From contig JAGSYV010000010.1 in NCBI GenBank assembly GCA_018262505.1, positions 1-59,539 on the forward strand: a DNA stretch of 59,539 nt. Reading direction: 5' to 3'. Shown here piece by piece: positions 1,247 through 22,863 of the stretch. The notes under the pieces are model-generated. The model ran no database searches and had not been told where the DNA came from. It saw nothing but the letters and a program-made list of their open reading frames with translations. The translations under genes were made by a program, and so were the position numbers. Each line of letters begins with the position of its first letter. The first letter of the stretch is position 1. The DNA is from Pseudomonadota bacterium (GTDB taxonomy: Bacteria; Pseudomonadota; Alphaproteobacteria; Rhizobiales; Pleomorphomonadaceae).

Positions 1247-1284
1247 GGAAACCTTGAATCCTTAGCGTCGGGCCGACAGCGTCG
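1247..1284 (+). promoter_or_regulatory. Phage-locus promoter-like motif, site A, with hairpin
   Basis: AAACC (1249-1253), seven bases, then CTTAG (1261-1265), followed by a short hairpin (CCGAC, loop AGC, GTCGG). It lies about 55 bases before the 1327 start. It is one of seven clear sites of the same design, each ahead of a phage gene here. Confidence 0.6.
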
Positions 1285-1326
1285 GACCGGTAAGGCGTCC
1301 TGGCGCGTGAGCGATGCGAGGACCAG

Positions 1327-3387
1327 ATGCCCGTTGTGCCAACCTATGAAGACCGAGGCATTCGCCTCGATCCCGGCCTCAATTTCCGCGACAGCACCCA
1401 CGCCACCGGCGAGATGTTCGGCTCGCAAGTGGGCGAGGCGATGGGGAAGGCCGGGCAGGGCCTCATCGACGTGGGCAAGGCGGTGGCCGAGGTTGAGGAT
1501 CTCGATGCCACCACCACCGCCAAGGACAATGGCAACGTGTTCATTGGACGAGCCAACGAACGGGCCTATGGCGAAAACGGCTACATGAACACCAGCGGCC
1601 GCGCGGGGGTAGAGGGGATCAAGAGCTTCCAGGCTGACCTCATGCAGATGGCAAAAGAGGGAGCCAAGGGGCTGTCGCCGCTTGCCGAGAGGCGATACTG
1701 GGACACGGCCAATGTCGTCATGAACGACATGATGAAGGAAGCCTATCGCCACTCGATGGCGCAACGACCCGTGTGGAAGGCGAAGGCTGACAACACGCGT
1801 ACCGCCGTGCTCTCCGACAGTGCTGTTAGCAAGCCGGAGGGGAGCGAGGGGGTGCCGCTGATGGTTGCCGCCGCCGTGGCCCAGCACGACGAGACGGCGC
1901 GGGATCAGCAACTGCCTGAGCAGGACAGACTGAAGGGGAACGCAAGCGTCGTTTCCGATATTGTCGAGGCGCGGCTTCTCAAGCGGGCGGAGACGGACCC
2001 CAGGGTGGCGTTGCGCCAGCTCGAACTCGCCAAGGGCAGTCTTCCGAAGGCCACCTTCGATAGACTGTTCGGGAACTTCAACAAGGCGGCGGTTGACGAG
2101 ACGACCTGGCAGGGCGCCGTGGCCTTCGCGACCGGTCCGCGGGCGCCGGAAGAAATGTCGCCGATAGTAGGCGTATCGGACGCAACGCCCGCTGCCGGCC
2201 CGACGCGGCAGAAGGGCTTCCTGCTCGACCACACGGCCGGCGCCAACGCCCCGGCGGTGCTCAATCTCGATACTCCCTTCGCCACCAATCTCGCCGCCTT
2301 GATCGAGGACGCGCCGGCCAAGGTTCGCGATGGCCTCGGCATCGGCTTCCGCAAGGGGGCCGACGACCCACATGGCGAGCGGCGGGCGGCCGACCTCACC
2401 TATCTTGGCGTCAGCCTCGATCAGGCGCCAGCCGATGTGCAGGACTGGCTGCGGCGCAACGCCGGTTCATACGGTCTCAGCCTGCCGATCGGCGGCGGGC
2501 CGAACGGCTCGGTGGTAGCCAGCACCGACGGCGTGGCGGTCCGGGCGCTAAGGCCGTCGGCGGAAGCCATCGACAAGCACCTCGCGTCCATCGCCGATCC
2601 GGGCCAGCGGGTGATTGCCCAGCAGGCGATCATGGCCACGCTGGACCAGCAAAGCCGGCAGGAGCAGCAGCAGCAGCAAGCGGCCAAGGACGTGCTGTGG
2701 CAGAAGGTGGAGGACGGCACGGCGCCCGACGCACTGCCCTTCCCCATCCGCCAGGCGGCCGGCAGCGGCGCCATGACGGTGGCGCGCAACTATGTCAACA
2801 AGACGCGGCACGGTCCCATCGTCAGCGACGACGTGCTGCTCCGCGACATGCGCCTTTTCGCCGCCGAGCGGCCGGAGGATTTCGCGCGGGTGGACCTCAA
2901 CGACTATCGCGACCGCCTGGAAGGATCCGATCTCAAGGCGCTGGCCGAGACGCAATCGGCGATCGGCCAGGACAGTCGCAAGGCGCGCGACCAGGGCGCC
3001 GAGCTCAAGAATGCCTTCGACATCGCCAAGACGAGGCTGGAAGACGCCGGTGCGCTGACGCCGGGCGAAGAAAGCGCCCATCAGCGCCAGTTGCTGGCCC
3101 AGGTGCAGAACACCGTCTATGCCGGCCTTGCTGACTTCCGGACGGCCAATCCCGGCGCCAGGCCGACGCCGTCCGACGTCCACAAGATGGTCGATCCGTT
3201 CCTGCTGCCCTACTACCTGCCGCAACCGGACCCCAGGCGCGGCAAGCCCGTAGCCAAGCTTTCCGACATCTCGCCCGACCTGCGCGCGAGCATTACGCAG
3301 CAGCTTGCCATGGAGATCGACCGCAAGCCGACCGATGGCGAAATAGCGCGGGAATACGCGGCGTTCATGCAGTCGCAGTTGGTGTGA
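1327..3387 (+). CDS. Phage internal virion-like protein (gp15-like position)
   Basis: A 686-residue, largely hydrophilic and helical protein. The opening (VPTYEDRGIRLDPGLNFRD) and the segment YGENGYMNTSGRAGVEGI match a pattern I associate with internal virion or ejection proteins of podoviruses. A Gln-rich helical stretch lies near residues 436-446, and the C-terminus is predicted helical (PFLLPYYLPQPDPRRGKPVAKL...). The length compares with T7 gp15 (about 750). The ATG at 1327 follows GCGAGGA. The order, before a giant polyvalent protein and tail fibres, also fits gp15. The 3' end of this gene is repeated downstream at 4865-4893 and 6479-6813, each copy next to another membrane-protein gene. 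The exact family cannot be assigned by eye; an internal virion role is inferred from composition and position. Confidence 0.6.
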   Translation: MPVVPTYEDRGIRLDPGLNFRDSTHATGEMFGSQVGEAMGKAGQGLIDVGKAVAEVEDLDATTTAKDNGNVFIGRANERAYGENGYMNTSGRAGVEGIKSFQADLMQMAKEGAKGLSPLAERRYWDTANVVMNDMMKEAYRHSMAQRPVWKAKADNTRTAVLSDSAVSKPEGSEGVPLMVAAAVAQHDETARDQQLPEQDRLKGNASVVSDIVEARLLKRAETDPRVALRQLELAKGSLPKATFDRLFGNFNKAAVDETTWQGAVAFATGPRAPEEMSPIVGVSDATPAAGPTRQKGFLLDHTAGANAPAVLNLDTPFATNLAALIEDAPAKVRDGLGIGFRKGADDPHGERRAADLTYLGVSLDQAPADVQDWLRRNAGSYGLSLPIGGGPNGSVVASTDGVAVRALRPSAEAIDKHLASIADPGQRVIAQQAIMATLDQQSRQEQQQQQAAKDVLWQKVEDGTAPDALPFPIRQAAGSGAMTVARNYVNKTRHGPIVSDDVLLRDMRLFAAERPEDFARVDLNDYRDRLEGSDLKALAETQSAIGQDSRKARDQGAELKNAFDIAKTRLEDAGALTPGEESAHQRQLLAQVQNTVYAGLADFRTANPGARPTPSDVHKMVDPFLLPYYLPQPDPRRGKPVAKLSDISPDLRASITQQLAMEIDRKPTDGEIAREYAAFMQSQLV

Positions 3388-3483
3388 GAGTGGCGTCCTT
3401 TCGCAGCGCAAGACTATCTCGATGACGAGAGGCATCGCGAGGATCGCTGTGGGCTCAAGAGATAGTCCGTTGTAAAGGTGCAG

Positions 3484-3520
3484 CTTATCGGGGTATGGTT
3501 TGTCATGCTACCCTGATAAG
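3484..3520 (+). promoter_or_regulatory. Conserved inverted repeat before membrane gene 1
   Basis: CTTATCGGGGTA (3484-3495) and TACCCTGATAAG (3509-3520) pair over 11 of 12 positions with a 13-base loop, ending 13 bases before the ATG at 3534. The same element, with compensating sequence changes, precedes the paralogous gene at 5042. It could be an operator or an mRNA hairpin near the ribosome-binding site. Confidence 0.6.
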
Positions 3521-3533
3521 TAGAGTTAGGTAT

Positions 3534-4730
3534 ATGAACAGTCTGGCTTCCGACGCCCTCCACTTTGCCTTCGACAATTTGTTTACCGTTATTTTGGGAG
3601 TGCCTTTTCTAGCGGCGGCCATTTTCTTGCATTTTTTGAAGCCTACGTTCAAGCTCGGGCGGGCTGGCTACTTCTGTGCATTTGGGGTAACCCTTCTAGT
3701 CTGGAGATTAGCTGGTCCTCTGGGGTCCGTGGTGGCGAAGAACGAGGGAAGCGTCTATTTTCCCTTCTGGGTATTGGCCGTTTATCTGTGTCTTATTGTC
3801 ACTGGAATTTTGCTCGGTCTTGCTTCCTCGGCACGCGCGATGGACGCCTATAACCATCGCACCTATTGGTTCTTGGGGTTTATTCCTATCGCCAATCTTT
3901 CGCTTCTGCTCAAGCGGCCGAGGCAGCGCAGGGAGTTGCACGTCTCGCAGTTGGCCGGAAACGCCTTGCTCATTGGCACCGGCTGCCTGATGCTCGGTAC
4001 GTTCTATCTGCCGGCCGATTTCTTCGCGCCGGCCATGGTGGCGTTCGTTGGTCGTGGGGAATACGATCGTATATTGGACGGTGATGTCACGCAGCAGGAA
4101 GGCTATAAACGCGTATTCGGCGTGTATCTGCAGGGACATATCGACTCGATTCGTCCACCAAGAAACATTGACGAAGATGAAGTATTCGTCGGAAAAGAGA
4201 TCGATGGGACTACCATCCGTCTAATCTTCGAGCGTGGAAACAACATAACCTACAAGGGATCGATGGCCTGGCTGCTCCAGGAGAGTTTTGAGGTATGTCG
4301 GGATCCGCGCCTCGGAACCTTCATGGATATGGGCGCGACCGTCGAAAGGAGATACGTCACGCACCAGGGGGGACTTCTGGATACGGTGACCGTCACAGCA
4401 GCAATTTGCCCGACAGTGCCCGAGGCCGTTTCAGAATATATCCAGGTTTTCGCGGGCCTTGCGAAGCGAGGGATTCGCATTGACGACGAAACAATTTCCA
4501 GCAACGGCAATTATGCCGACAAGCTGATGACCGTCGATTTCAAGTATTCTGGAGATATTGGGAAGTTATCCATGAGTTATATTCAGAAATCTGTTTGCAG
4601 TCATCCGATATTCGCGAATATCACGCGGTTCGACGTGAGCGTGCAGGGAGTTTACAAGTCGGACAAGGGCGAGGATTTAGGGGAAGCGACCGTCGACTAC
4701 AATACCTGCCAGGCCCTGAAGAAGGGATAG
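3534..4730 (+). CDS. Accessory membrane protein 1 with extracytoplasmic domain
   Basis: A 398-residue protein. The first 180 residues carry about four or five transmembrane segments with the signature GLASSARAMDAYNHRTYWFLGFIPIANLSLLLKRP. The remaining 200 or so are a soluble domain with four scattered Cys, probably periplasmic. The start at 3534 is chosen because it lies just after the conserved hairpin and matches the paralogue at 5042-6235; an in-frame ATG at 3495 falls inside that hairpin. GC content and codon use are lower than in the flanking phage genes, suggesting a separate origin. It sits where phage genomes often carry accessory genes, so superinfection exclusion or envelope protection is possible, but nothing shows this directly. 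The family is not recognised. Confidence 0.65.
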   Translation: MNSLASDALHFAFDNLFTVILGVPFLAAAIFLHFLKPTFKLGRAGYFCAFGVTLLVWRLAGPLGSVVAKNEGSVYFPFWVLAVYLCLIVTGILLGLASSARAMDAYNHRTYWFLGFIPIANLSLLLKRPRQRRELHVSQLAGNALLIGTGCLMLGTFYLPADFFAPAMVAFVGRGEYDRILDGDVTQQEGYKRVFGVYLQGHIDSIRPPRNIDEDEVFVGKEIDGTTIRLIFERGNNITYKGSMAWLLQESFEVCRDPRLGTFMDMGATVERRYVTHQGGLLDTVTVTAAICPTVPEAVSEYIQVFAGLAKRGIRIDDETISSNGNYADKLMTVDFKYSGDIGKLSMSYIQKSVCSHPIFANITRFDVSVQGVYKSDKGEDLGEATVDYNTCQALKKG

Positions 4731-4864
4731 AAGGCATCCACTCCTCGTGCATCTTGCCGGTCGCCATGTCCCTTTTACTGTTGCTGGCACTGTCGATGAG
4801 CAGTCGCTGGTGAAGGTTTTCGGCATCGTTACTCACGCGTTTGCTGGATGTGAAGGCAAACGCA

Positions 4865-4893
4865 GGCGTTCATGCAGTCGCAGTTGGCGTGAG
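4865..4893 (+). pseudogene. 29-base copy of the 3' end of the 1327-3387 gene
   Basis: The bases coding FMQSQL and the stop of the 1327-3387 gene recur here with one substitution (Val to Ala in the last codon). It is not preceded by a reading frame. It is followed, as in the original, by about 100 bases and the hairpin leader of a membrane-protein gene, so it marks the boundary of a displaced cassette. Confidence 0.7.
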
Positions 4894-4992
4894 GGCGTGG
4901 GGCTTGCGAAGCGTGGCATGCGCGGACTCTACGGCGGGGAGCGCCTGGATAATTGCTGTGATCTCTGTAGATAGCCCGTTGTCCGTCCGCAT

Positions 4993-5028
4993 CTTATTAG
5001 GGTAGGATTTTGTATCTACCCTAATAAG
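4993..5028 (+). promoter_or_regulatory. Perfect 12-bp inverted repeat before membrane gene 2
   Basis: CTTATTAGGGTA (4993-5004), a 12-base loop, and TACCCTAATAAG (5017-5028) are perfectly complementary and end 13 bases before the ATG at 5042. Upstream, AGATAG-Y-CCGTTGT is also shared with the 3484 element. The single mismatch of that copy is paired here, so the stem rather than its exact sequence is conserved. Confidence 0.65.
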
Positions 5029-5041
5029 TAGAGTTTTGTAT

Positions 5042-6235
5042 ATGGAAGCGTTCGCCTACAGGATCATGCAAACCGGCTACTCCAACTCCCTCTTTTTCTC
5101 CTGGGGGATGCTGCTTGCTTTCGCGGCGGTCGTTGTTTTCTTGGTTAAGCCAAAATTTCGGATGGGCCGGGCTGCATATTTCTCTGTCATGGGATTGTGT
5201 ATTCTGTTTTTTGGGATGCGATATTTTATAGATGGCTTTTTTCAGGATGCCGTGAAGAATGATTATTTATTCAAACTGGTGCTGGGCAGCTATTCTTGCC
5301 TCACCATAGGTGCCGTTCTGCTCGGGCTTGCTTCGGCTGCAAGGTCAAATGACGCATACGGTCACTGGAAGAATTGGTTCCTGGGATTTATCCCGCTTGT
5401 CAGCCTCGTATTGCTTTTCAAGTCACCGCTGGAGCCGGGGAAGCCGGGCTTCTCGCGGGTTGCGGTAAACATCCTGCTAATTGTCTTGGGCTTGTTTCTG
5501 TTTGGGTCCGGCAGAATGCTGGTGGTTCTTACCGATCTGGATAGTCGACAGACCGCCGGCAACGCGCAGAACGATCCGGAGTTTCAGAAGAAAGCGGAGC
5601 GGTACGAGCTGCAAAATCGCGGCGTGAATGGGTGGCTGCAGGAAGTGGTGAAGACCATCCATACACCTGAAAAAATTGACTGGGCTACCGTGATGTCTTC
5701 AGCGAAGGTCGATGGGGATACACTTCGCTTTGTTTATGAGGTCGCCTACGGAAGTAGCGCCTATTCGCAGATCTGGAAGAATCAGAAGACCTATGAGTTG
5801 TGTAAAATGCCCGCGTTTGCCAATTTGATGGAAGCCGGTGGAACCATTGAGAAGAAGTACCTCGGAGAACAGGGCATGCTTCTGGGCGAGGCAAGGGCCA
5901 ATACACAGCTTTGCGGGCCATTTTTAGCTGGCATTGCAAAAGATGCACAAGAAATTATCTCTGGATGGCATGAATCGGTTCCGATTAACGACGAGACGAC
6001 GTGGACGAATATTGAATATAGAGACGATCTTTTGATTGTGTATTTTGAAAAGAAGGGTAATGGGGAGAGAGTTGATACAGATAGCGTTCTGTATAAGCTT
6101 TGCGGTAATGACTTATCCAGGAAGATTATGGATTTTGGTGTCGATGCCCGTGTTGTGACCGGGACATCGGAGAAGGTCGAGATAGGCACTGATACCGTTC
6201 CTAACGTCGACTGCACCTATTGGATTGCTGAATAG
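5042..6235 (+). CDS. Accessory membrane protein 2 (paralogue of 3534-4730)
   Basis: A 397-residue paralogue of the 3534-4730 product with the same architecture: hydrophobic N-terminal half with the signature GLASAARSNDAYGHWKNWFLGFIPLVSLVLLFKSP, then a soluble domain of about 210 residues containing spaced Cys and an LMEAGGTIEKKYL segment that aligns with FMDMGATVERRYV of the first protein. Identity is concentrated around the last transmembrane segments; the soluble domains have diverged widely, as in proteins under selection for different partners. The start at 5042 follows the conserved hairpin. The gene is bracketed by fragments of the 3' end of the 1327-3387 phage gene. Function unknown; an immunity or exclusion protein is a hypothesis only. 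Confidence 0.65.
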   Translation: MEAFAYRIMQTGYSNSLFFSWGMLLAFAAVVVFLVKPKFRMGRAAYFSVMGLCILFFGMRYFIDGFFQDAVKNDYLFKLVLGSYSCLTIGAVLLGLASAARSNDAYGHWKNWFLGFIPLVSLVLLFKSPLEPGKPGFSRVAVNILLIVLGLFLFGSGRMLVVLTDLDSRQTAGNAQNDPEFQKKAERYELQNRGVNGWLQEVVKTIHTPEKIDWATVMSSAKVDGDTLRFVYEVAYGSSAYSQIWKNQKTYELCKMPAFANLMEAGGTIEKKYLGEQGMLLGEARANTQLCGPFLAGIAKDAQEIISGWHESVPINDETTWTNIEYRDDLLIVYFEKKGNGERVDTDSVLYKLCGNDLSRKIMDFGVDARVVTGTSEKVEIGTDTVPNVDCTYWIAE

Positions 6236-6366
6236 AGCAAATATCGACTGGAGTGAAACTTCAGCCCAACCTGTTTGACAAGGCTTGATGTTACCGGTCA
6301 TGGCAAAGTAAGCGTTCGGCTTTGACCAAGCCGTGCCGTACACGCGGATCAATGGTCTGTCACAGC

Positions 6367-6414
6367 GGAAACCCTTCGCCCCCTAGCATCCGGCATTCCG
6401 ACCACGAGGGGATG
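6367..6414 (+). promoter_or_regulatory. Phage-locus promoter-like motif, site B, with hairpin
   Basis: AAACC (6369-6373), eight bases, CCTAG (6382-6386), then CGGCAT pairing with ATGCCG across a 15-base loop. It precedes the TTG of the gene remnant at 6420. It is closely similar to site D over about 45 bases. Confidence 0.55.
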
Positions 6415-6419
6415 CCGCC

Positions 6420-6813
6420 TTGCTCAGCCCTGCCGACTACGACGATTACAAGGGTAGGCAGCGGCGGGAAGATGCCGCGCGCTGACGCCCGGCGAAGAAA
6501 GCGGCGATCAGCGCCAGTTGCTGGCCAGGGTGCAGAATGCCGTCTACTCCGGCCTCGCCGACTTCCGGGCGGCCAACCCCGGTCGCAAGCCGGCGCCGGC
6601 TGATATCCGCAAGATGGTCGACCCGTTCCTGCTGCCCTACTATCTGCCGCAACCAGACCCCGGCGCGTCAAACCCGTAGCCAAGCTTTCCGACATCTCGC
6701 CCGACCTGCGCGCGAGCATTACGCGCCAGCTCGCCATGGAATACGGTCGCAAGCCGACGGACGGCGAGGTGGCGCGGGAGTATGCGGCGTTCATGCAGTC
6801 GCAGCTGGGTTAG
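6420..6813 (+). pseudogene. Chimeric remnant: start of a 7560-type gene joined to end of a 1327-type gene
   Basis: From the TTG at 6420 the frame reads LLSPADYDDYKGRQRREDAAR and stops at 6483-6485. This matches the first residues of the 7560-11519 product. From 6479 to 6813 the DNA matches the last 336 bases of the 1327-3387 gene in another frame (GEESGDQRQLLARVQNAVYSG...), with one base missing near 6660 that causes a stop at 6677-6679. The junction GAAGATGCCGCGCGCTGACG resembles both parents, so a deletion through short homology joined them. Because the intact genes lie in the opposite order, the deletion must have happened between tandem copies of the locus. Confidence 0.8.
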
Positions 6814-6839
6814 GAGGTGTGGTCCTTACGCACTCAGTT

Positions 6840-7232
6840 TCAGCGCTGTGTTGCCGCCGCGTCGTCCACCGGAGCCGCGCCAAACTCTACCTCCAGGTTC
6901 TCCAGCGAAGAATAGTAAATGCTGATGGACAGAAGAAGCAAGATGACGACGCCGGTACCGAGGCCCCTCGTCGGCACGGACGCACTCCTGGCGAGCCGGA
7001 CGATGGCAAAAAAGAGAGCTGGTATGATGAACAAGCCTATGAAAGTGCCGATAATGGTCCCGATATACCGTGCGGATCCGAAATCCTGATTGGGTAATTT
7101 GAAGCCGAGAAGTACTGTGATCACGATCGTGGCGGCCAGGGCAAGCAAGCACAGCTTTCTCATGCAGCTGTCTCGATGATACCTGTCGGCGGCCACGGCT
7201 TTCTTGGTTTCTTCCGAGACATCGATTTGCAT
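6840..7232 (-). CDS. Small membrane protein, third cargo gene
   Basis: A 130-residue protein with an N-terminal cytoplasmic stretch of about 25 residues and three predicted transmembrane segments (LCLLALAATIVITVLLGF, IGTIIGTFIGLFIIPALFFAIV, GVVILLLLSISIYY). No conserved motif is recognised. It lies on the minus strand, in the same slot between phage genes that holds the two plus-strand membrane genes. It follows the displaced 3' end at 6813 directly, so it looks like a third accessory gene. Coding bias and membrane topology support a real gene, but a homologue would be needed to be sure. Confidence 0.5.
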   Translation of the reverse strand: MQIDVSEETKKAVAADRYHRDSCMRKLCLLALAATIVITVLLGFKLPNQDFGSARYIGTIIGTFIGLFIIPALFFAIVRLARSASVPTRGLGTGVVILLLLSISIYYSSLENLEVEFGAAPVDDAAATQR

Positions 7233-7393
7233 TCTTAACCTCGTGCTCCAGTCCTACGCGTCGGCTCCGGACGGACTGCTGCTCGCATAGGGGCGATCCC
7301 TGAATGCTTCGACTATGTCCGGAGAGACGCGAGTCGGCAACGAGGCGCAACCCCTTATTGAGTCGTGGTGAATACTGAAGCACCCGCCGATCA

Positions 7394-7492
7394 GATTGAG
7401 TCAACCTGATCGCAGAGCGGCTGCTCAAGCAAATGAACCTGGAGCCATCGCCGGACCACCAAATGTTTCAATTTGGTCGCGAAGGCTCCAGG
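7394..7492 (+). repeat. Dispersed intergenic palindromic repeat (RIME-like), copy 1
   Basis: About 98 bases here match the reverse complement of 40850-40945, for example GCGGCTGCTC-N-AGCAAATGAA and AAATGTTTCAATTTGGTCG. The right half folds into a nested hairpin (CCTGGAGCC 7438-7446 with GGCTCCAGG 7484-7492; ACCAAAT with ATTTGGT inside). A further pair, CGATCAG with CTGATCG, lies at the left end. It is not coding and is of the size of rhizobial intergenic mosaic elements. Confidence 0.7.
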
Positions 7493-7506
7493 GGCGTCTA
7501 TCACCA

Positions 7507-7554
7507 TGAAAACCTCCAGGACTTAGCGTCGGGCCCGATCCTTTTCGGGAGACA
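7507..7554 (+). promoter_or_regulatory. Phage-locus promoter-like motif, site C, with hairpin
   Basis: AAACC (7510-7514), seven bases, CTTAG (7522-7526), then CCCGA-N6-TCGGG. GGGAGA after the hairpin is the likely ribosome-binding site for the TTG at 7560. Confidence 0.6.
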
Positions 7555-7559
7555 GGCCT

Positions 7560-11519: not shown

Positions 11520-11769
11520 CCCTCGAAAGGCTCCAAAAGGCACGCCGAAAACCGACCGCCAAAAGTTCGATGAAAGGCGACGCTCTGGAAGGTTGCATAG
11601 GGCAGAGTGTCGCAATATTGGCAGTGCTGCGGCAACCCGAATTATCGTAGCTGGCGTGCGCTTATCGGTCGGCTTGAACGCAGTGAAAGCGACCGTACGG
11701 GAGAGGTGCGGCTGTACGAATGTGAACGCTCTATAGCTTGGTTCAGGTCGATACCGCTGGTCATGCCGA
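11520..11769. other. Non-coding gap after the 7560 gene
   Basis: No convincing gene. Open frames here are short and lack phage-like or conserved content. The stretch ends at promoter-like site D. It separates two halves that appear to derive from one large gene. Confidence 0.5.
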
Positions 11770-11819
11770 AAACCCACCATCCCCTAGCATGCGGCATTCT
11801 GACCTTTGGGGATTGCCGC
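11770..11819 (+). promoter_or_regulatory. Phage-locus promoter-like motif, site D, with hairpin
   Basis: AAACC (11770-11774), eight bases, CCTAG (11783-11787), then GCGGCA pairing with TGCCGC. TTG follows at 11821, as at site B. About 45 bases are shared with site B apart from the loop. Confidence 0.55.
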
Positions 11820-11820
11820 C

Positions 11821-11997
11821 TTGCCCGCCAGAGCCCGTCTCAAACTCGTTTGCCAGTCCTCGTCGATTGAAGAGAGCGGGAAGGCACCAGTTTTCTTCGC
11901 CGCTCTGGGAACGCTCGAAGGTTCGATTTCGCTTCCCTTGTCCAATGCGCGAAAGGGCGGTTTTTCCTGCCTTTGCCACTGCCGGAGACCACAATGA
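11821..11997 (+). CDS. Possible 58-residue leader peptide or gene remnant
   Basis: From the TTG at 11821, in the same position relative to site D as the TTG starts at sites B and C, an open frame of 58 codons runs to a TGA at 11995-11997. The stop overlaps the ATG of the next gene as ATGA, which would couple their translation. The product is basic and Cys-containing with no recognised family and no similarity to the 7560 start. It may be a degraded 5' end kept as a leader, or chance. Confidence 0.35.
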   Translation: MPARARLKLVCQSSSIEESGKAPVFFAALGTLEGSISLPLSNARKGGFSCLCHCRRPQ

Positions 11998-15419: not shown

Positions 15420-15960
15420 CGCTCGCAAAACGGCGCAACGCACGTGCTGAGGACGACAAGGCGTTGCCCCATTCCCCTGTCGTCTGGTTCAAGCATGGAG
15501 GCCTCTTGCCTAAGCTGCAGGTTTCGTCCAGTCCGCGCGGCAAAGCAGCCGAAATCAAGTATCCTACCCCGATCAGTGCTTATGTTTTTACGACGTTTAG
15601 CAAGCGCGTGACCGCTTGCATGAGATTTGGGCGACTCAATACTACCTGCTCGGATGGATATCCATCCAAACGTAACGTCGCAAAAGACACCGGAGGGTTG
15701 CGATTCCTTCCGTTCTCGCTCCCAGGACAGACAAGTTGCCCACCCGATCGGAGGTCGATGTTTGAAACGCTGTTGTTCAATCTCCGGGCGAAGTTTTGCC
15801 AGCGCCTGGCAGACTGTTGAACCAGGCGCAGCGGCTTCCCTATACTCCACGGGTCGAAATGGCCTCTGCCTGCCGACAGTGACAATGGCTACGAGGATGA
15901 TCCCCAGATGGGGATGGATGCGCCGGGACCGGGGAGGAGGTTTCGCTGGCGTGACCAAGT
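15420..15960. other. Non-coding gap before the first tail fibre
   Basis: About 540 bases in which I see no gene. Plus and minus frames are open for 60-100 codons in places, but none has a good start, phage-like content or a partner. Composition is nearer to balanced GC than the flanks. Site E ends the gap. Confidence 0.5.
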
Positions 15961-16000
15961 AAACCGTTCCTCGCCTAGGGTCTCGCAAAACCAGCGAGGC
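15961..16000 (+). promoter_or_regulatory. Phage-locus promoter-like motif, site E, with hairpin
   Basis: AAACC (15961-15965), eight bases, CCTAG (15974-15978), then CTCGC-N7-GCGAG. The hairpin ends shortly before the ATG at 16007, so its 3' arm (GCGAGG) may also act in ribosome binding. Confidence 0.6.
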
Positions 16001-16006
16001 CAGCCC

Positions 16007-17377
16007 ATGACCATTGCGAGCGAAGCAAACCGCTCCGGCCCCTATGCCTGCAACGGGGTGACGACACATTTTCCCTATGCCTTCAGGATCTACGACGCGG
16101 CGCACATCCGCGTCATCCTGACGAAACCCGACGGCACCGAGACCACGCTGGCGCTTGGGACCGACTACACGGTGTCCGGCGTCGGGGGGAGTGACGGCGG
16201 GGCCGTTGAAGCGGCAGTCGCCCACGCGACTGGACACTTCGTTACGCTGATCCTGAACGTGCCGTTCACGCAGAACATCGACCTCGAGAACCAGGGCGCT
16301 TATTTCGCCGAGACCATCGAGCGGGCGATCGACCTGCAGACGCAGATGTCGCTGCAGCTCAAGGAGCAGGTGGCGCGCGCCGTGGTGCTGCCGGTGACGT
16401 CGTCGGTGTCGGTGGACAGACTGACCGGCGCGGTGCTCTCACTCGCCGAGATCCAGCCGCAGATACAGACGCTGGCGCCGATCGCCGGGAACATCGTGAC
16501 GGTGGCCGGCATCGCGGGTGCGGTTGTCGCGGCCGAGGGGAATGCCAACACCGCGACGGCGGCGGCCGCGTTGGCGACCGGCAGGGCGACTGAGGCGGCG
16601 GCGAGCGCGGCGGCGGCGCAGACCTGGAATCCGGCGATTTATTCGACCACCGCCCAAATCACCACCACCCTCGCCGGCTATGTGCCGATAGCGCGCAAGC
16701 TGAAGGTCGGCACAGGCCTTTCGCTCGATGGAGTCGCGGGTAGCGACGGAGTGCTGGCCGAGGGCGATCTTTCGAAAGATCGGATGCTCGCACTCGACCT
16801 GACAGCCGTACTTGGTCGCTTGAAGAACGTTCGCTTCATAACAACCTCTGGTAACGTCCAGCCGGCCCCAGGCTGCACTAAATGGCTCGGCTTTTTGGTC
16901 GGTGGAGCAAACGCCGGTGGTAACAGCAGCGGAGCATCTTATGGTGTTGGGGCTCCCGGCGGAGCTGGGTGCATGTTCTTTGCTACGGTTTCCGATGGCA
17001 CACAGTATGCGGCGGTGATCGGCGGTGTTGGGGGTAATTCCAGTTTAGTAGTAGGAACCACCACCTACAGCGCCGAGGGTAATGGTGGGGTGGCAACCAA
17101 TGGCCTCGTCAATCTATCAGGTGCCCCCAGTGGGGATGGAACGGTTACCGGCGGCAATCCTGTGGTGCTTTCCACCGGCCCGAACGGCGGCGATGGGCCT
17201 TTTGGCCTCGGCGCCGGCGGCGGAGGCGCTCGAGTCAGTAACTGGAATGGCTCCGTATCCAGAAACGGCATCGCTGGGCGCGGTTACGGCGCTGGTGGCG
17301 GCGCAGCAGCTGGCCTCGGTGGCTCTGGTACTGGCGGCGCGGGAACTCCAGGTTGCCTTCTGTTGCTGGAGTTCTGA
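16007..17377 (+). CDS. Phage tail fibre 1 with glycine-rich tip
   Basis: A 456-residue fibre. The ATG at 16007 is chosen because the paralogue at 20443 starts identically (MTIASEANRSGPY). Residues 1-130 form the T7 gp17-like virion-attachment domain (FPYAFRIYDAAHIRV...NVPFTQNIDLENQGAYFAETIERAIDLQ). A helical/Ala-rich shaft follows (to about 235). The tip, from about 300, is a glycine-rich adhesin (GAPGGAG...GGGGARVSNWNG...GAGGGAAAGLGGSG...) ending in LLLLEF, a pattern common in receptor-binding fibre ends. The first 233 residues are nearly identical, at DNA level too, to the second fibre, and the rest is unrelated. It would determine what surface the particle binds. A three-base gap separates it from the next gene. 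Confidence 0.8.
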   Translation: MTIASEANRSGPYACNGVTTHFPYAFRIYDAAHIRVILTKPDGTETTLALGTDYTVSGVGGSDGGAVEAAVAHATGHFVTLILNVPFTQNIDLENQGAYFAETIERAIDLQTQMSLQLKEQVARAVVLPVTSSVSVDRLTGAVLSLAEIQPQIQTLAPIAGNIVTVAGIAGAVVAAEGNANTATAAAALATGRATEAAASAAAAQTWNPAIYSTTAQITTTLAGYVPIARKLKVGTGLSLDGVAGSDGVLAEGDLSKDRMLALDLTAVLGRLKNVRFITTSGNVQPAPGCTKWLGFLVGGANAGGNSSGASYGVGAPGGAGCMFFATVSDGTQYAAVIGGVGGNSSLVVGTTTYSAEGNGGVATNGLVNLSGAPSGDGTVTGGNPVVLSTGPNGGDGPFGLGAGGGGARVSNWNGSVSRNGIAGRGYGAGGGAAAGLGGSGTGGAGTPGCLLLLEF

Positions 17378-17379
17378 GC

Positions 17380-17919
17380 ATGAAACAAGCTTGCGTAATT
17401 GATGCCGGGGTGGTGGTAAACACCCTCATGCTGGACGACGATGCGGACCCCGCAGACTTCGGGGCAATGCTTGGGCCGGACGGGGTCGGCATTGGTTGGT
17501 CGTTCAACGGGACGGACTGGATTGCCCCAGCTAATACGGTTGTTCCAGTCCCCTCGCTTGAAAACATTCGCTCCGCCGCCAAGGCTAGCGTCGACGCCGG
17601 AGCCGAGGCCTATCGTCTCACCTACATCACCGGCGGGTCGGGTCAGGCGATGGCCTACCAGCAAAAGCTGGAGGAGGCCAAAGCCTACCTCGCCGATCTG
17701 TCGCTAACGACCATCGAGTGCCCGCATGTCTTCGCCGAGATCGGCATCACGGGCGAAACCGCCGAGGCTGTGGCCCAGGTGGTGGTTGGCATGCATGCCG
17801 CCTGGCAGGTCAAATCGGCTGAGATCGAGCGCAAGAGGCTCGCGGCAAAGGTGGCGATCGACGTAGGCGAGACAGCCGAAGCGATCAGCGCGGCAGCAGA
17901 GATAGATTGGGGCGCATAA
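17380..17919 (+). CDS. Tail-fibre-associated protein, helical C-terminal domain
   Basis: A 179-residue protein two bases after fibre 1, with GGAG before its ATG. The first 60 residues (VIDAGVVVNTLMLDD...GPDGVGIGWSFNGTDWIAPA) resemble the small beta-rich start of tail-fibre accessory proteins. Residues 65-170 (AAKASVDAGAEAYRLTYITGGSGQAMAYQQKLEEAKAYLAD...) are a helical segment found in many alphaproteobacterial prophage tail proteins. Its place directly after the fibre suggests a chaperone or attached tip protein, by analogy with tail-fibre assembly genes. The corresponding gene in the second cassette (21714-22394) differs in sequence but has a similar plan. Confidence 0.6.
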   Translation: MKQACVIDAGVVVNTLMLDDDADPADFGAMLGPDGVGIGWSFNGTDWIAPANTVVPVPSLENIRSAAKASVDAGAEAYRLTYITGGSGQAMAYQQKLEEAKAYLADLSLTTIECPHVFAEIGITGETAEAVAQVVVGMHAAWQVKSAEIERKRLAAKVAIDVGETAEAISAAAEIDWGA

Positions 17920-18007
17920 CGAGCATGGTCCACGCGATCGATGCCGCCTCACTTGGTGCCCTTATACCAATTCGCGAAGATGCTGACGCATCCGCTCATT
18001 GAGATTG

Positions 18008-18089
18008 TTGCCGATTTCTCATTTGCCCCAAAGGCATGAGAAATCGGCAAACGGAATACCAAGAGTCATTTTCAATGCATCTTGGTATT
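18008..18089. terminator. Bidirectional terminator region between convergent genes
   Basis: TTGCCGATTTCTCAT (18008-18022) and ATGAGAAATCGGCAA (18036-18050) form a perfect 15-bp stem with a 13-base loop. A second pair, AATACCAAGA (18055-18064) and TCTTGGTATT (18080-18089), follows. They lie between the ends of the plus-strand 17380 gene and the minus-strand acyltransferase. Confidence 0.7.
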
Positions 18090-19988
18090 AGGTGCTCCTT
18101 CCGAAAGCACGTGCTCAACTTCGGTCGCGACCTTGTCGGCGATGATTGGCGCCGTTGTTTTAGAAAGGTGGGAGCCATCGAAAAGGACGAACTCTCCATC
18201 CCTGACCATTGGGCAACTACTCCCCTCACAGAACCAATCGAGGCCATTCACTTCGCTAAATGGAAGCCTGGCGTCATTCAAGGATTGAACGAGACGGGAG
18301 CGGATATATGACGCTAGGTCATAGTCGCCATAGATCTGTGACTTCAGGCCGTACCTGATCTCCTTTCGGGCCACCGGGAAATTGGGGACAGTGGCGTGGG
18401 GTGTGACCAGAACGACCTGGCTGCCGAGTTCGCGCAGCCTCGCAACCGTCTCCCGAAGCCCTGTGGTGATCACGTCCGCAGGCGGTCTTGCAGGATCATC
18501 CAAAGCAGTGACGAGTGACTGTTTAGGCCTAGGTCCGACAAATGCGCCATACCAGGCGTAGGCGCTGGTCAGAACGACGACTGGGAACCTATGCTGCTTT
18601 AGGTACTCGAATGTTTTGTTGTTGTGTTGCGTACAATCGGAGTTCGATGTCCGCAAGTCCGCTTCATTTTTCTGAATGCCAAGAAGCGAAGGGCAACCAT
18701 GCCTGATGGAGAATTCAAGCCCCTCCCCACGTGCGTTGAGCGCGCGCCCGAGGCTTGAACCAAACGCGTCGGCGTAGCTGTCTCCCCAGAAGAAGACGCG
18801 TGTGTTTGGCAACTTGAAGCAATTGCCCTGTTCAAAACCGCAGCCGTCCGCTGTTTCTCGCTGGCTTCCAGGCGCGGGAATGAAGGTCGTTCCGATCCAG
18901 GATCCGAGGAAAAGGCTCACCGCGCCGAGTAGGGAGAAGGCGAAGACACGCGCCCGCGTTCTGAAAAGCGAGTATGCCCCGGACCTTATGGGCGTCTCCA
19001 CAAATCGCCAACTGATATAGGCGAGAGGAAGGCTACAGAGAGCAACGACGGAGGTCATGAAGACGGACGGCGGTTCAATCGACCTCGTCTTCAAAAGTGC
19101 GATCAAGGGCACATGCCAGAGATAGGCGCCGTAGCTGAGCTTGCCGATGAATGAAACGGACGGGTGACCGAGAGCCTTGCAAGGCCATGCGGTCGACGAT
19201 CCAAACAGGAGGATGAGCGCGGTTCCCACGACCGGGGCGAGGGTGAAGTGCGACGGGAATAGATAGTCCTCGCTCAGAATGGCGAAGGACAGAAATAGAA
19301 TGATCAACCCAAGAAGAGACAGCGAAGTGACGCCCTTCTTTCCCATCTTCTGCCGTAGGGCAAACGCCGCGGCGCCAAAGAGCAACTCAAACGACCTGTA
19401 GGGCGTCGAGAAGAATAATTTCTCTGGATTTTTATGGCTAAACAAAACGGTGGCCTCTGTAACCAGAAACAACAACAGGGCGCCGGCGATGATGACCGTA
19501 AGCCTGTGTTTTCGGCATAGCTTCCAGAGGAGGAACACCACCAACGGGAACACAAGGTAGAACTGTTCCTCGACGGAGAGGCTCCAGGTGTGAAGAAGGG
19601 GCTTTTCGTCGCTGAGGGGGGAGAAATAATCAGTGCCTTTGGCGAAAAAGGAATTAGATCTAAATGTAACGACTGCCTGAATGGATCGTAGGTATTCGTG
19701 CAGCTCGAAGGGGAATGTCCAGGCGACCACAAATGGCAGCGTACATAAAATTACCAAATACAATGCGGGCAGAATTCTTCGGCAGCGCCGCTCGTAGAAC
19801 TTGAATATTGAAAATTCGCCTCTGCTAATTTCGCTATCTATGATGCCGAAAATAAGAAACCCGCTGATGACGAAGAAGATGTCCACGCCGATGAAGCCGC
19901 CGCCAAACCCTGGCAGCCCAGCGTGAAACAAGATGACGGGAATGACGGCCAAGGCGCGGAGACCATCAATGTCGCTCCTGTATTCCAT
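18072..19988 (-). CDS. Surface polysaccharide O-acetyltransferase 1 (acyltransferase-3 plus SGNH)
   Basis: A 638-residue membrane enzyme of the OafA/YrhL type. The start at 19988 is chosen because MEYRSDIDGLRALAVIPVILFH is the family's normal N-terminus. Residues 1-370 hold about ten transmembrane helices with the acyltransferase-3 signature (GGFIGVDIFFVISGFLI, FYERRCRRILPAL, HTWSLSVEEQFYL). A periplasmic SGNH domain follows: WGDSYAD carries the nucleophilic Ser, and FDGSH near the C-terminus the Asp604 and His607 of the catalytic pair. The family moves acetyl groups across the membrane onto O-antigen or capsule sugars. Lying between two tail-fibre cassettes and opposite in strand, it fits a lysogenic-conversion gene that changes the surface receptor. 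Its 5' region shares a promoter with the second acyltransferase. Confidence 0.85.
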   Translation of the reverse strand: MEYRSDIDGLRALAVIPVILFHAGLPGFGGGFIGVDIFFVISGFLIFGIIDSEISRGEFSIFKFYERRCRRILPALYLVILCTLPFVVAWTFPFELHEYLRSIQAVVTFRSNSFFAKGTDYFSPLSDEKPLLHTWSLSVEEQFYLVFPLVVFLLWKLCRKHRLTVIIAGALLLFLVTEATVLFSHKNPEKLFFSTPYRSFELLFGAAAFALRQKMGKKGVTSLSLLGLIILFLSFAILSEDYLFPSHFTLAPVVGTALILLFGSSTAWPCKALGHPSVSFIGKLSYGAYLWHVPLIALLKTRSIEPPSVFMTSVVALCSLPLAYISWRFVETPIRSGAYSLFRTRARVFAFSLLGAVSLFLGSWIGTTFIPAPGSQRETADGCGFEQGNCFKLPNTRVFFWGDSYADAFGSSLGRALNARGEGLEFSIRHGCPSLLGIQKNEADLRTSNSDCTQHNNKTFEYLKQHRFPVVVLTSAYAWYGAFVGPRPKQSLVTALDDPARPPADVITTGLRETVARLRELGSQVVLVTPHATVPNFPVARKEIRYGLKSQIYGDYDLASYIRSRLVQSLNDARLPFSEVNGLDWFCEGSSCPMVRDGEFVLFDGSHLSKTTAPIIADKVATEVEHVLSEGAPNTKMH

Positions 19989-20132
19989 GGCCGGCGGGTG
20001 ATTGGGTGTTTGTTGGATCGACGATGCCTCCGTGTTGGTCGCCTCTTCCCGATATTTCCAATTGGAGTTCGTCAATATCCCGCACCCACCCTGCCGGCCC
20101 GCCACACGGCAGACGCTCTTCAAACGGGCTGC

Positions 20133-20161
20133 AAGATAGATATACTCGTTACAGATTGAAA
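20133..20161 (-). promoter_or_regulatory. Promoter of acyltransferase 1
   Basis: On the minus strand TTTCAA (20156-20161), 17 bases, then TATCTT (20133-20138). The whole segment TTTCAAT-Y-TGTAACG and the following bases are conserved at 26425-26453 upstream of acyltransferase 2. The leader to the chosen start is about 140 bases. Confidence 0.5.
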
Positions 20162-20223
20162 TATGGAATTGGCTGGATATCAATGCGGCGGCCTATGACA
20201 GTCTGACCCGATGGGATGGGGGC

Positions 20224-20259
20224 CCTAGACTGCCCGCAAAGCCGGGTTTCACGCTTTGC
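20224..20259 (+). promoter_or_regulatory. Degenerate phage-locus motif, site H, with hairpin
   Basis: CCTAG (20224-20228) is followed by GCAAAGC (20236-20242) pairing exactly with GCTTTGC (20253-20259). The AAACC part is not recognisable upstream. The hairpin is followed by AGGA and a GTG start at 20272. Confidence 0.4.
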
Positions 20260-20271
20260 GAGGATTGATCT

Positions 20272-20376
20272 GTGGCCTCCATTGCGCCCTTTGTTGGTGT
20301 CCGCGTCCAGCATTCCATCCTGGTCGACACCGTCGAGAAGCTAGCCGTCGAGACCGGCTTTTCGGTTTCCGTTTAA
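20272..20376 (+). CDS. Possible 34-residue phage peptide
   Basis: GTG at 20272, preceded by GAGGA at good spacing and by the hairpin of site H, opens a frame of 34 codons ending in TAA at 20374-20376. The peptide (VASIAPFVGVRVQHSILVDTVEKLAVETGFSVSV) looks amphipathic and has no recognised family. The leader arrangement is like that of the other phage genes here, which is the main support. It may instead be the stub of a lost gene, since the next promoter-like site follows at once. Confidence 0.35.
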   Translation: MASIAPFVGVRVQHSILVDTVEKLAVETGFSVSV

Positions 20377-20398
20377 GAGTGGACCGACGTGATGAAAC

Positions 20399-20431
20399 AA
20401 ACCCTCTCCCCATAGGATCTCGCAAAACAGC
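20399..20431 (+). promoter_or_regulatory. Phage-locus promoter-like motif, site F, with hairpin
   Basis: AAACC (20399-20403), seven bases, CATAG (20411-20415), then CTCGC-N6-GCGAG, close to site E. The ATG of fibre 2 follows at 20443. Confidence 0.6.
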
Positions 20432-20442
20432 GAGGCCTGCCG

Positions 20443-21705
20443 ATGACCATTGCGAGCGAAGCAAACCGCTCCGGCCCCTATGTCTGCAACGGGGCGACGA
20501 CACACTTTCCGTTCAGTTTCAGGATCTACGACGAGACGCATATCCGCGTCGTCCTGACCGATCCGCAGGGCATCGAGACGACGCTGTCGCTCGGAGCCGA
20601 CTATGCTGTATCCGGTATTGGCCAGAGCGGTGGCGGGGCGATCGACATGGCCATCGCTTACGCGTCGGGCTATCGGGTGACGCTGACCCTCAATGTGCCG
20701 TTCACGCAGAACATCGACCTTGAGAATCAGGGTGCTTATTTTGCCGAGACGATTGAGCGGGCGCTAGATCTCCAGACGCAGCAATCGTTGCAGATCAAGG
20801 AACAGGTGGCGCGCGCTGTCGTGCTACCGGTAACGTCGACGGCGGAGATAGAAAAGCTGACAAGCGCCGTACTGTCGCTCTCGGAAATCCAGCCGCAGAT
20901 GCAGACGCTGGCGCCAATCGCCGGGGACATCACGACGGTCGCCGGCATCGCGGGTGCCATCGTGGCAGCCGAGGGGAATGCAAACACCGCGACGGCGGCG
21001 GCCGCGTTGGCGACCGGCAAGGCGGCCGAGGCGGCGGCGAGTGCGGCGGCGGCGCAGACCTGGAATCCGGCGATTTATTCGACCACCGCCCAAATCACCA
21101 CCACCCTCGCCGGCTATGTGCCGATAGCGCGCAAGCTGATCGCCGGCACGGGAGTGAAGCTCAACGGTGGGACAGAGGCGAGTCTTGCGGGCGATGTGAC
21201 GATTGCGGTGGCCGGCGTGCCGACTGGCGCCGTCATGGGGTTCGATCTGGCCGCGCCGCCGATCGGATGGATCGTCGGTGATGGATCGGCGATCAATCGC
21301 GCTGCATATTCGGATCTCGACGCGGTCAAGTATTGCGGCGATGCGCTGAATGCCACGGCCACCGCCTGGTACCGATGTACCGACCCGGCAAATCCCAGCA
21401 CCACACGGTCGGTAACGGGCGGCTATCTTGTCACTAGAGATTTGCGGGGCGTGTTCTTACGCTTCCTTGATGGTGGACGAGGCCTCGACAGCGGGCGTGT
21501 CTTAGGTAGCCAGCAGGCTGATATGGTGGGGCCGCACACGCATGCCATGAGTACCCAGCTTACCTACGCGAAGCGCATCAGTGACGGGGGCACCTCGAAT
21601 CGAGTTGAGCCTGACTATGGCGGGACGAAAATTGACGTCCTATCGAATACAGGCACAGAAACGCGCCCCGTCAACATCTCTCTTCTCGGGTGCATTAAAT
21701 ATTGA
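20443..21705 (+). CDS. Phage tail fibre 2 with tail-collar-type tip
   Basis: A 420-residue fibre whose first 233 residues are nearly identical to fibre 1: the same attachment domain (FPFSFRIYDETHIRV, NVPFTQNIDLENQGAYFAETIERALDLQ) and the same shaft. The tip is unrelated to fibre 1. From about 265 it has the tail-collar fold signature (PTGAVMGFDLAAPPIGWIVGDGSAINRAAYSDL...TRDLRGVFLRFLDGGRGLD...HTHAMS) and ends TRPVNISLLGCIKY, as in many phage fibres. It is therefore an alternative receptor-binding protein for the same attachment site. A lone fibre set would normally suffice, so the two cassettes suggest either a bispecific particle or successive capture of fibre alleles. Confidence 0.8.
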   Translation: MTIASEANRSGPYVCNGATTHFPFSFRIYDETHIRVVLTDPQGIETTLSLGADYAVSGIGQSGGGAIDMAIAYASGYRVTLTLNVPFTQNIDLENQGAYFAETIERALDLQTQQSLQIKEQVARAVVLPVTSTAEIEKLTSAVLSLSEIQPQMQTLAPIAGDITTVAGIAGAIVAAEGNANTATAAAALATGKAAEAAASAAAAQTWNPAIYSTTAQITTTLAGYVPIARKLIAGTGVKLNGGTEASLAGDVTIAVAGVPTGAVMGFDLAAPPIGWIVGDGSAINRAAYSDLDAVKYCGDALNATATAWYRCTDPANPSTTRSVTGGYLVTRDLRGVFLRFLDGGRGLDSGRVLGSQQADMVGPHTHAMSTQLTYAKRISDGGTSNRVEPDYGGTKIDVLSNTGTETRPVNISLLGCIKY

Positions 21706-21713
21706 GGTCGCAC

Positions 21714-22394
21714 ATGTCCATCAAGACTGTTTATCAAGTAGGTGCTAATGGGATCTATACGGGTCCAGCAATCGCCTACGAGAGTCCTCTCGAGACAGGC
21801 GTCTTTCACCTTCCGGCTGGTTGCGTTGAACTCGCTCCGCCCATTCCTGAATCGGGGAAAATGGCTATTTGGAAGGGGGGCGCGTGGTCTTTCGCTTTGA
21901 ATCATCGCGGCGAGGCATGGTATCTCGGCAGCGTCAAAACCACCATCGATTTCGTGGGTGATCCGATCGAACGGGGATATACGACTGCGCCACCGCCTCC
22001 CACCTTCGAAGAACTTCGCTCCTCCAAGATTGCAGCGATTGTCTCTGCTGCCAATGCCCTCCTCATCACCGGCGCTCCAGTCGACTCCACCCTCCATATC
22101 GCCCTTGACGACGGTAGCCGCGCCGATCTGACCGCCATGGCGGCAACGGCCACAGCCGCCGCCTCCGGTTCCGTCCCTTGGCCGGAAAGCTATGCGCGTG
22201 GCTGGATTACCATCGAGAACATCCGCATCCCGCTCACCACACCGTCTGCCGGCTTGGCGCTCGCCGCCTCGGTTGGCAATTACTACGCCGCCCTTATCCA
22301 GCACCGGCGCGACCTGAAGGATGCGGCCCTGGCGGCCGAGGACGAAGCAGCGCTCGATGCCATCGACATCGCCGCCGGCTGGCCTACCTTATAG
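21714..22394 (+). CDS. Tail-fibre-associated protein (DUF4376-like)
   Basis: A 226-residue protein eight bases after fibre 2; the start MSIKTVYQV at 21714 gives the usual N-terminus. The first 100 residues (YQVGANGIYTGPAIAYESPLETGVFHLPAGCVELAPPIP...WKGGAWSF) are a typical small beta-rich module of tail-fibre accessory proteins. Residues 105-220 (FEELRSSKIAAIVSAANALL...GSRADLTAMAATATAA...) look like a DUF4376 domain. It occupies the place of the 17380 gene in the first cassette. A chaperone or bound tip subunit for fibre 2 is the likely role. Confidence 0.65.
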   Translation: MSIKTVYQVGANGIYTGPAIAYESPLETGVFHLPAGCVELAPPIPESGKMAIWKGGAWSFALNHRGEAWYLGSVKTTIDFVGDPIERGYTTAPPPPTFEELRSSKIAAIVSAANALLITGAPVDSTLHIALDDGSRADLTAMAATATAAASGSVPWPESYARGWITIENIRIPLTTPSAGLALAASVGNYYAALIQHRRDLKDAALAAEDEAALDAIDIAAGWPTL

Positions 22395-22403
22395 GCCGCT
22401 GGC

Positions 22404-22805
22404 ATGACCAAGCCCCTCTTCCAGGACACCGATCCCACCGGAGAAATCCTCATCAAGCTCGGCGAGCTCGGCGCCAGCGTCGAACACCTGTTGCGTGATT
22501 TCGCCGATGAGAAGACCGCCGCCCGCGACAACCGTGCGTCCGTGCATCGCCGCCTCGACGAACAGGCGCAAGGATTGGCCGACGTCAAGACCGAACTGGC
22601 GCTGAGCCGGCAGGTGGTCGAGACCCTTGCCAAGGCCCAGGCGGAAACCGTTCTGCCGGCCGTCGACGACTGGCAGGGCATGAAGCGGACCGGCCTCACC
22701 ATCGTCGGCCTTCTCGCCCTTGGCGGCGTCAGCGTCGGCGCCACCATGGCTTGGTTCTCCGACCAGGCGTCGATGCTGGTGCGCCACTGGCTGAGGATCG
22801 GCTGA
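22404..22805 (+). CDS. DUF1515-like phage protein with C-terminal membrane anchor
   Basis: A 133-residue protein. The N-terminal 90 residues are helical (LIKLGELGASVEHLLRDFADEKTAARDNRASVHRRLDEQAQGLADVKTELALSRQVVETL), like the DUF1515 proteins encoded beside endolysins in rhizobial prophages. A single transmembrane segment lies near the C-terminus (GLTIVGLLALGGVSVGATMAWF). It starts nine bases after the DUF4376-like gene and opens the lysis cassette. A holin-accessory or anti-holin role is possible from topology and context, but not shown. Confidence 0.55.
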   Translation: MTKPLFQDTDPTGEILIKLGELGASVEHLLRDFADEKTAARDNRASVHRRLDEQAQGLADVKTELALSRQVVETLAKAQAETVLPAVDDWQGMKRTGLTIVGLLALGGVSVGATMAWFSDQASMLVRHWLRIG

Positions 22806-22817
22806 GCGCCATCCCGA

Positions 22818-22855
22818 AAACCCATCCCGCCTAAACTCTGGCCATTCTTGCTGGA
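22818..22855 (+). promoter_or_regulatory. Phage-locus promoter-like motif, site G, with hairpin
   Basis: AAACC (22818-22822), seven bases, CCTAA (22830-22834), then AACTC pairing with GAGTT around a 14-base loop. It lies directly before the holin-like gene at 22864. Confidence 0.55.
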
Positions 22856-22863
22856 GTTGCGCG

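Follow-up and report, generated by a model that had tools for sequence, protein, structure and literature searches.

The 59,539-nucleotide stretch analysed here (the window) comes from a 5.28-Mb draft genome of the Pleomorphomonadaceae. Between positions 1327 and 24072 it codes for internal virion proteins, two tail fibres with assembly-type proteins, a lysozyme, a candidate holin and a candidate spanin, with two membrane-protein genes and one acyltransferase gene interspersed, and the flanks of the window are host genes. The fibres and the protein encoded at 11973 match podoviruses of the Bordetella phage BPP-1 type. Judged from sequence, the region supplies the tail and lysis genes of a podovirus particle set that resembles BPP-1 and is found in Pleomorphomonas. 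Most units of the set are preceded by copies of a short conserved motif, called the box here, and the subject of this report is the box together with the gene set, which is likely to be a new gene transfer agent. The features of the window are the following.

1235-1270 (+): motif copy before the gp15-like gene (unit D1); D1 is motif-headed in nine other genomes too
1327-3387 (+): gp15-like internal virion protein; C-terminal half matches phrog_10475 (endolysin), the gp15 label being given by gene order relative to BPP-1
6355-6390 (+): motif copy before a 21-codon vestige of a gp16a-type start
7496-7530 (+): motif copy before the gp16a-type gene (unit D2)
7560-11519 (+): large internal virion protein, labelled gp16a; no PHROG match, sub-threshold LPD22 in Pfam
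11756-11791 (+): motif copy with no intact gene directly downstream
11973-15419 (+): large internal virion protein (unit D3); phrog_9880, distant relative of BPP-1 Bbp10
15947-15983 (+): motif copy before tail fibre 1 (unit D4), with a clear leader hairpin
16007-17377 (+): tail fibre 1; phrog_1640 and others
20224-20228 (+): half motif, CCTAG only, after an inserted minus-strand acyltransferase gene
20385-20419 (+): motif copy before tail fibre 2, with a clear leader hairpin
20443-21705 (+): tail fibre 2
21714-22394 (+): fibre assembly-type protein; phrog_1807, DUF4376
22804-22838 (+): motif copy before the lysis unit (D6)
22864-23097 (+): small membrane protein DUF7940, putative holin
23084-23674 (+): phage lysozyme, PF00959
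23674-24072 (+): putative spanin, proposed from its position; no family match

The initial annotation had described a promoter-like motif at seven sites. When both strands of the window were searched with the pattern AAACC-N7/8-C(C/T/A)TA(G/A), matches were found at 1249, 6369, 7510, 11770, 15961, 20399 and 22818, exactly where they had been placed, all on the plus strand and nowhere else on either strand; at 20224 the CCTAG part stands alone, as had also been reported. Two features had gone unremarked: a T five bases after the TA, present at all eight sites including 20224, and a conserved stretch 5' of AAACC, CACCRCGG, seen in the multi-genome site collection (see below). The number of matches expected by chance is about 0.04 per 23 kb on one strand, a descriptive figure, the pattern having been picked after the sites were seen. 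The motif is real, and its seven sites in the window exceed chance; independent support comes from the relatives, because they carry the motif ahead of the same genes. The statement that it heads every phage transcription unit held in part: copies stand before the gp15, gp16a, fibre and lysis units, but the copy at 6369 heads only the 21-codon vestige, and the copy at 11770 is followed by no intact phage gene before 11973/11994. The gp16a-type start vestige with its own motif copy (6369-6490) adjoins a remnant similar to the end of gp15.

On both strands of the draft genome the pattern matched 27 times and a reversed control pattern 53 times. Nine of the 27 matches lie in the phage gene set, namely the seven in the window, one at C247:13327 (-) before the tubular-nozzle cluster and one at C82:30657 (-) before a gene called B (C, G and L numbers are our handles for contigs, genomes and loci). 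Among the 18 matches elsewhere, the one at C247:7500 is just downstream of the nozzle cluster, ahead of no particle gene; near the others no gene of the phage set was seen. The motif is thus not spread at random over the genome, which the initial annotation had named as a finding that would speak against it, but is concentrated at the phage set.

The window starts inside a long acyltransferase gene (aas in our labelling), most of which is found at the end of contig C247, so that the window probably adjoins C247 in the chromosome. In congeners a second cluster lies upstream, mostly past host genes, and contains the tubular (phrog_394), nozzle (PF25675, phrog_376), phrog_308 and gp14-like (PF24072) genes. 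A third cluster consists of portal (PF12236), protease (phrog_458) and major capsid protein (PF20911) genes, with the terminase genes terS (PF03592) and terL (phrog_2) ahead of it and gene B standing separate after it. BPP-1 has the same genes in the same order, contiguously. In the complete chromosome G012 the set extends from 1,933,756 to 2,078,799 (145 kb), all on the plus strand, with host genes interspersed; the order portal, nozzle, gp15 cluster seen on single contigs of G001, G002 and G006 matches, and the same gene order and flanking genes recur in several species. The locus is not an ordinary prophage but belongs to a particle set whose parts are dispersed through the chromosome. The host-gene flanks and the head genes found elsewhere in the chromosome rule out a simple prophage, and the latter finding rules out a tail-only particle as well. 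A tailocin is a tail without head and packaging genes; here portal, major capsid protein, protease, terS and terL belong to the set. IMG/VR lists as viral contigs several pieces of the scattered set that carry motif copies (L117, L119, L120 and L121).

Close copies of the nozzle gene (at least 86%) were found in nine of the 14 genomes of the genus and the close portal type in ten. In G009, portal, gp15 and gp16a are present with the motif, and no nozzle match was found. The fragmentary genome G011 has a gene designated A0 and a terS-like gene as well as gp15, fibre and holin units with the motif, its portal and nozzle matches being only distant. Counting these two, in which it is incompletely seen, the set is present in 11 of the 14 genomes. 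It is missing in G004, G007 and G008, the first of which has two distant portals of other phages. Beyond the genus, coverage consisted of nozzle scans and the contiguous relatives described below.

A wider collection of sites was drawn from ten genomes, using the 110 bases that precede each unit of seven types (portal-adaptor, B, tubular-nozzle, gp15, gp16a, fibre and lysis). Sixty copies were collected, with the consensus YCACCRCGG-AAACC-N7/8-CYTAG-N-GTC, a bipartite conserved stretch of about 31 bases in which the distance from AAACC to TA is 9 or 10, mostly set by the unit type. Three unit copies, two fibres and the B of G000, had no site in the 110 bases (the B copy is further upstream). 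The picking rule required an AAACC-like start and TA and gave small weight to C and C/T before TA, to G/A after it and to T at +5; the C, C/T, G/A and T columns are weak evidence because the rule favoured them, and this includes the T at +5 found in 50 of the 60 sites. Columns independent of the rule were G two bases before AAACC (51/60), A seven bases before it (53 of the 55 sites with a base there), G at +4 (42/60) and C at +6 (47/60). Copies within one unit type are orthologues, so that the independent units are the seven types. In G003 (P. carboxyditropha; L022, 4955 and 11601) there are two tandem gp15 units, each with its own motif copy.

The expectation that further copies would stand at particle genes elsewhere was borne out; in the head module this holds for the portal-adaptor unit, which carries a variant with TAT, and for gene B, but not, within the preceding 110 bases, for terS, terL and A0. 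With a refined pattern 25 of the 42 matches in six set-bearing genomes were inside the set (a further match, on G009:C246, resembles a lysis-unit copy), as were 11 of the 21 in G001, G006, G011 and G013; the genomes without the set gave 0 (G004), 3 (G007) and 0 (G008). Matches outside the set were about equal to, or fewer than, those of the reversed control.

Twelve contiguous BPP-1-like relatives were examined: four from Rhizobium, two from Mesorhizobium, one each from Aminobacter and Phyllobacterium, a Sphingomonas metagenome-assembled genome (MAG), two Rhodobacteraceae MAGs and a second phage of P. oryzae. Major capsid protein, tubular, nozzle, gp14 and gp15 genes were found in all 12 and portal in nine, within 16 kb. 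A looser motif was absent from the 160 bases upstream of portal, major capsid protein, tubular, nozzle, gp14 and gp15 in all 12, and a second pattern run over the full stretches gave one match, on the minus strand of the Sphingomonas MAG. By comparison, the tubular genes of the scattered set in Pleomorphomonas had the motif 45 bases upstream in six of six cases. In G001, where the nozzle and gp15 clusters adjoin, the motif is still at the junction. Since it is absent before the genes checked in the contiguous relatives and kept at this junction, the box goes with the scattered form of the set. The P. oryzae phage (L104) is contiguous and lacks the motif; its host species has the scattered set as well.

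Each window site had also been described as followed by a hairpin with covarying arms. Leader folds were compared with dinucleotide shuffles and expressed as z, 155 host leaders of 37 bases serving as background (mean -0.2). Hairpins were clear at 15961 (-2.7) and 20399 (-2.3) and moderate at 6369 (-2.0), 11770 (-1.9), 22818 (-1.7) and 20224 (-1.4), but at 1249 (-0.1) and 7510 (-0.4) the folds were no better than the shuffles, random 37-mers averaging -0.2. By unit, mean z (n in parentheses) was -2.6 (5) for B, -2.4 (8) for D2, -2.0 (8) for D6 and -1.9 (10) for D4, and weaker for D1 (-1.0, 11), A3 (-0.2, 10) and C1 (+0.7, 8); within B two of the five copies, and within D4 several, folded no better than shuffles. 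Read directly, the folds of B, D4 and D6 show GGAG or GAGG in the 3' arm, immediately ahead of the start codon. Since unlike units have different arms, these are hairpins at separate sites and not one aligned element that covaries. As a universal part of the signal the hairpin is ruled out by its absence in C1 and A3. Hairpins are thus common, clear in four of the seven unit types, and not part of the core signal.

These data bear on how the box works. It had been likened to promoters of T7-type single-subunit phage RNA polymerases with 5' mRNA hairpins, the polymerase gene lying elsewhere. Its length, its repeated occurrence before late genes and the hairpins near the putative start in several units are points of likeness. 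However, PF00940 matched none of ten set-bearing Pleomorphomonas genomes in a search that detected the phage T7 control and that covers genome-encoded polymerases, not one brought by a visiting phage. The T7 promoter is fixed and 23 bp long; here the gap varies by one base between units, the conserved stretch is longer and differs in sequence, and C1 and A3 are without a hairpin. We regard this explanation as very improbable. Little more credit is due to the idea that the box acts mainly in the RNA, with the leader hairpins as the functional part in translation control or mRNA protection: it would suit the four unit types with clear hairpins and the GGAG or GAGG in three of them, but the box also occurs where no hairpin is formed, and it is the box sequence, not the arms, that the units have in common. 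Ordinary sigma-70 promoters are not supported: in 4500-24200, sigma-70-like matches showed no excess (6 found, 5.0 expected) and none was on the sites. The TA-N3-T of a sigma-70 -10 element can be read at all eight window sites and, with the bias of the picking rule, in 50 of the 60 collected ones. The suggestion that a factor encoded elsewhere drives the locus fits the evidence.

The box is probably a promoter read by host RNA polymerase with a dedicated activator, under which the blocks would form one regulon of a domesticated gene transfer agent. TAGNGT would serve as the -10-like element, and the predicted activator site is CACCRCGGAAACC, which lies some 22-35 bases ahead of the putative RNA start. 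Reading of the box by host polymerase and activator would switch on the scattered blocks together, and in some units, where the leader hairpin takes in the ribosome-binding region, translational control may be added. The candidate activator is A0, encoded directly before terS; it combines an HNH-like stretch with a winged helix of the OmpR/PhoB type and was matched in the 11 set-bearing genomes only.

Selection on the particle genes was estimated from the ratio of nonsynonymous to synonymous substitution rates (dN/dS) for units with at least four copies of 85% coverage, gp16a and the fibres being among those left out. Median dN/dS was 0.08 for major capsid protein, 0.14 for portal, 0.18 for terL and 0.21 for nozzle, the copies used had no internal stops, and dS was 0.23-0.61 as compared with 0.26-0.42 in four host genes. 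Purifying selection acts on most particle genes. Distances of portal and major capsid protein track host distances (r 0.92, 7 genomes), and for the lysis unit r was 0.58 (5-6 genomes). GTA_TIM, the domain by which the RcGTA family is recognized, was found in three of the 14 genomes, G004, G007 and G008, which are exactly those without the set, and in none of the 11 set-bearing ones; the Caulobacter control was detected. For random labels, with relatedness ignored, such exclusion has a chance of 1 in 364. Two changes are required to explain the two states on a tree of rpoB from 11 genomes, in which G004 groups with set-bearing G003 (support 87/98). Of six gene transfer agent criteria taken from section 3 of PMC9662315, two features were found: particle proteins derived from a tailed phage, and an endogenized genome whose clusters are split by host genes. 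For the criterion of a genome that the head is too small to package in full, the set spans 145 kb in G012 and the BPP-1 genome is 42.5 kb; for that of vertical inheritance, with the agent diversifying alongside its host, the distances are mixed. The packaging of mostly random host DNA and its delivery to other cells, the last two, are predictions here.

Taken together, we see an even chance that in Pleomorphomonas a podovirus of the BPP-1 type was domesticated to become an independent gene transfer agent, which took the place of the RcGTA type in most of the genus, the pieces of the broken late operon coming under one promoter box and being run as a single regulon by an activator beside the terminase. 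The cell would then make gene-carrying particles of its own, with particle formation, packaging of host DNA and transfer as predictions. Several observations weigh against reading the box as the promoter of such an agent. A0 is loosely constrained (median dN/dS 0.47), its copy in the genome of the window has a flagged in-frame stop, its structure model is poor outside the winged helix (mean predicted local distance difference test score, pLDDT, 54), and Foldseek alone gave nothing below E 0.001 and Pfam nothing for it. No copy of the box was seen in the 110 bases before terS, terL and A0, so the box falls short of the whole set. A TTGACA-like -35 (16-18 bases) did not accompany the sites in the scan of 4500-24200, and three of the six chance-level sigma-70-like matches lie about 80-150 bases upstream of a site. 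In the genome of the window terL was not located on the contigs examined. Distances of nozzle and tubular do not track the host (r 0.14, 5 genomes) and those of terL do so weakly (0.55), gp15 is loosely constrained (median dN/dS 0.55), and the exclusion of GTA_TIM was observed in a single genus, in 14 genomes among which at least one of the two states is shared through descent.

Some of these points would suit a decaying prophage, its pieces scattered by chance and the motif a relic of phage late promoters. The relaxed constraint on gp15 fits such decay, as do the vestige at 6369, the half-site at 20224 and the insertion sequence-like or host insertions between genes. Against it stand the purifying selection on most particle genes, whose copies were free of internal stops, the likeness of gene order and flanking genes in several species, and the fact that the contiguous phage relatives have no motif; decay is an unlikely explanation, though the one to be taken most seriously among the alternatives. 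Another possibility is a particle kept for killing or for some other host use than gene transfer, either tail-based or capsid-based. Fibre and lysis genes are conserved, and the window on its own shows tail and lysis genes only, but the set has kept terS, terL, portal, protease and capsid genes, for which a device made of a tail alone would have no use, and the constraint is among the strongest on four of them, capsid, portal, terS and terL. Such a device we consider improbable.

In having phage-derived particle genes in the host chromosome, the proposed gene transfer agent resembles RcGTA and CcGTA (Rhodogtaviriformidae; control by GafA or GafY-GafZ; PMC11150451, PMC9638019). A further likeness is that for Caulobacter PMC11150451 reports one activator, GafY, at about 20 promoters with a degenerate -35. 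The proposed agent differs from them in the phage type and the lack of GTA_TIM, and in that its genes, spread over about 145 kb, share a sequence box, whereas a GafY motif, according to that paper, was not easily derived. BaGTA of Bartonella (Bartogtaviriformidae) belongs to the same order, Hyphomicrobiales, and its genes lie within a larger region of about 79 kb, but by the description in PMC9662315 it has an HK97-type major capsid protein and a nearby origin of replication. BPP-1 itself (Rauchvirus), for all its likeness in particle genes and their order, is contiguous and carries an integrase, replication genes and a repressor. The contiguous phages of Rhizobium, Mesorhizobium, Aminobacter, Phyllobacterium and P. 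oryzae have nozzles 60-76% identical, but in them the genes are contiguous and none of those checked is preceded by the motif. In the collection searched there was no paper on Pleomorphomonas with prophage, on Pleomorphomonas with gene transfer agent or on gene transfer agent with 'Bordetella phage BPP-1', and among the matches listed by broader searches none shows this system in its title or at the start of its abstract.

Other features of the window were noted in passing. Between gp15 and gp16a, two membrane-protein paralogues are headed by inverted repeats at about 3480-3534 and 4990-5042 (CTTATCGGGGTA...TACCCTGATAAG and CTTATTAGGGTA...TACCCTAATAAG), whose arms differ with complementarity kept; a G003 copy is similar. 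Genes that look by eye like OafA-type acyltransferases, possibly surface-modifying, lie beside the fibre and lysis units at 18072-20105 (-) and 24291-26366 (-). A tRNA gene at 28303-28375 (+), downstream of the set, is the sole match to a known RNA family in 1-30000.

The 2022 classification (PMC9662315) lists three independently exapted gene transfer agent groups with an established genetic basis. For annotation, the box provides a short search string that links distant loci, including the pieces filed as viral contigs. The RcGTA marker being confined to genomes without the set, it can be tested directly whether one agent replaced the other, and some of the species are deposited type strains. 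If the proposed origin is true, a podovirus-derived candidate would widen the range of what can become a gene transfer agent, and a phage late operon that has been cut into pieces would still run as a unit by means of one box before most of the pieces.

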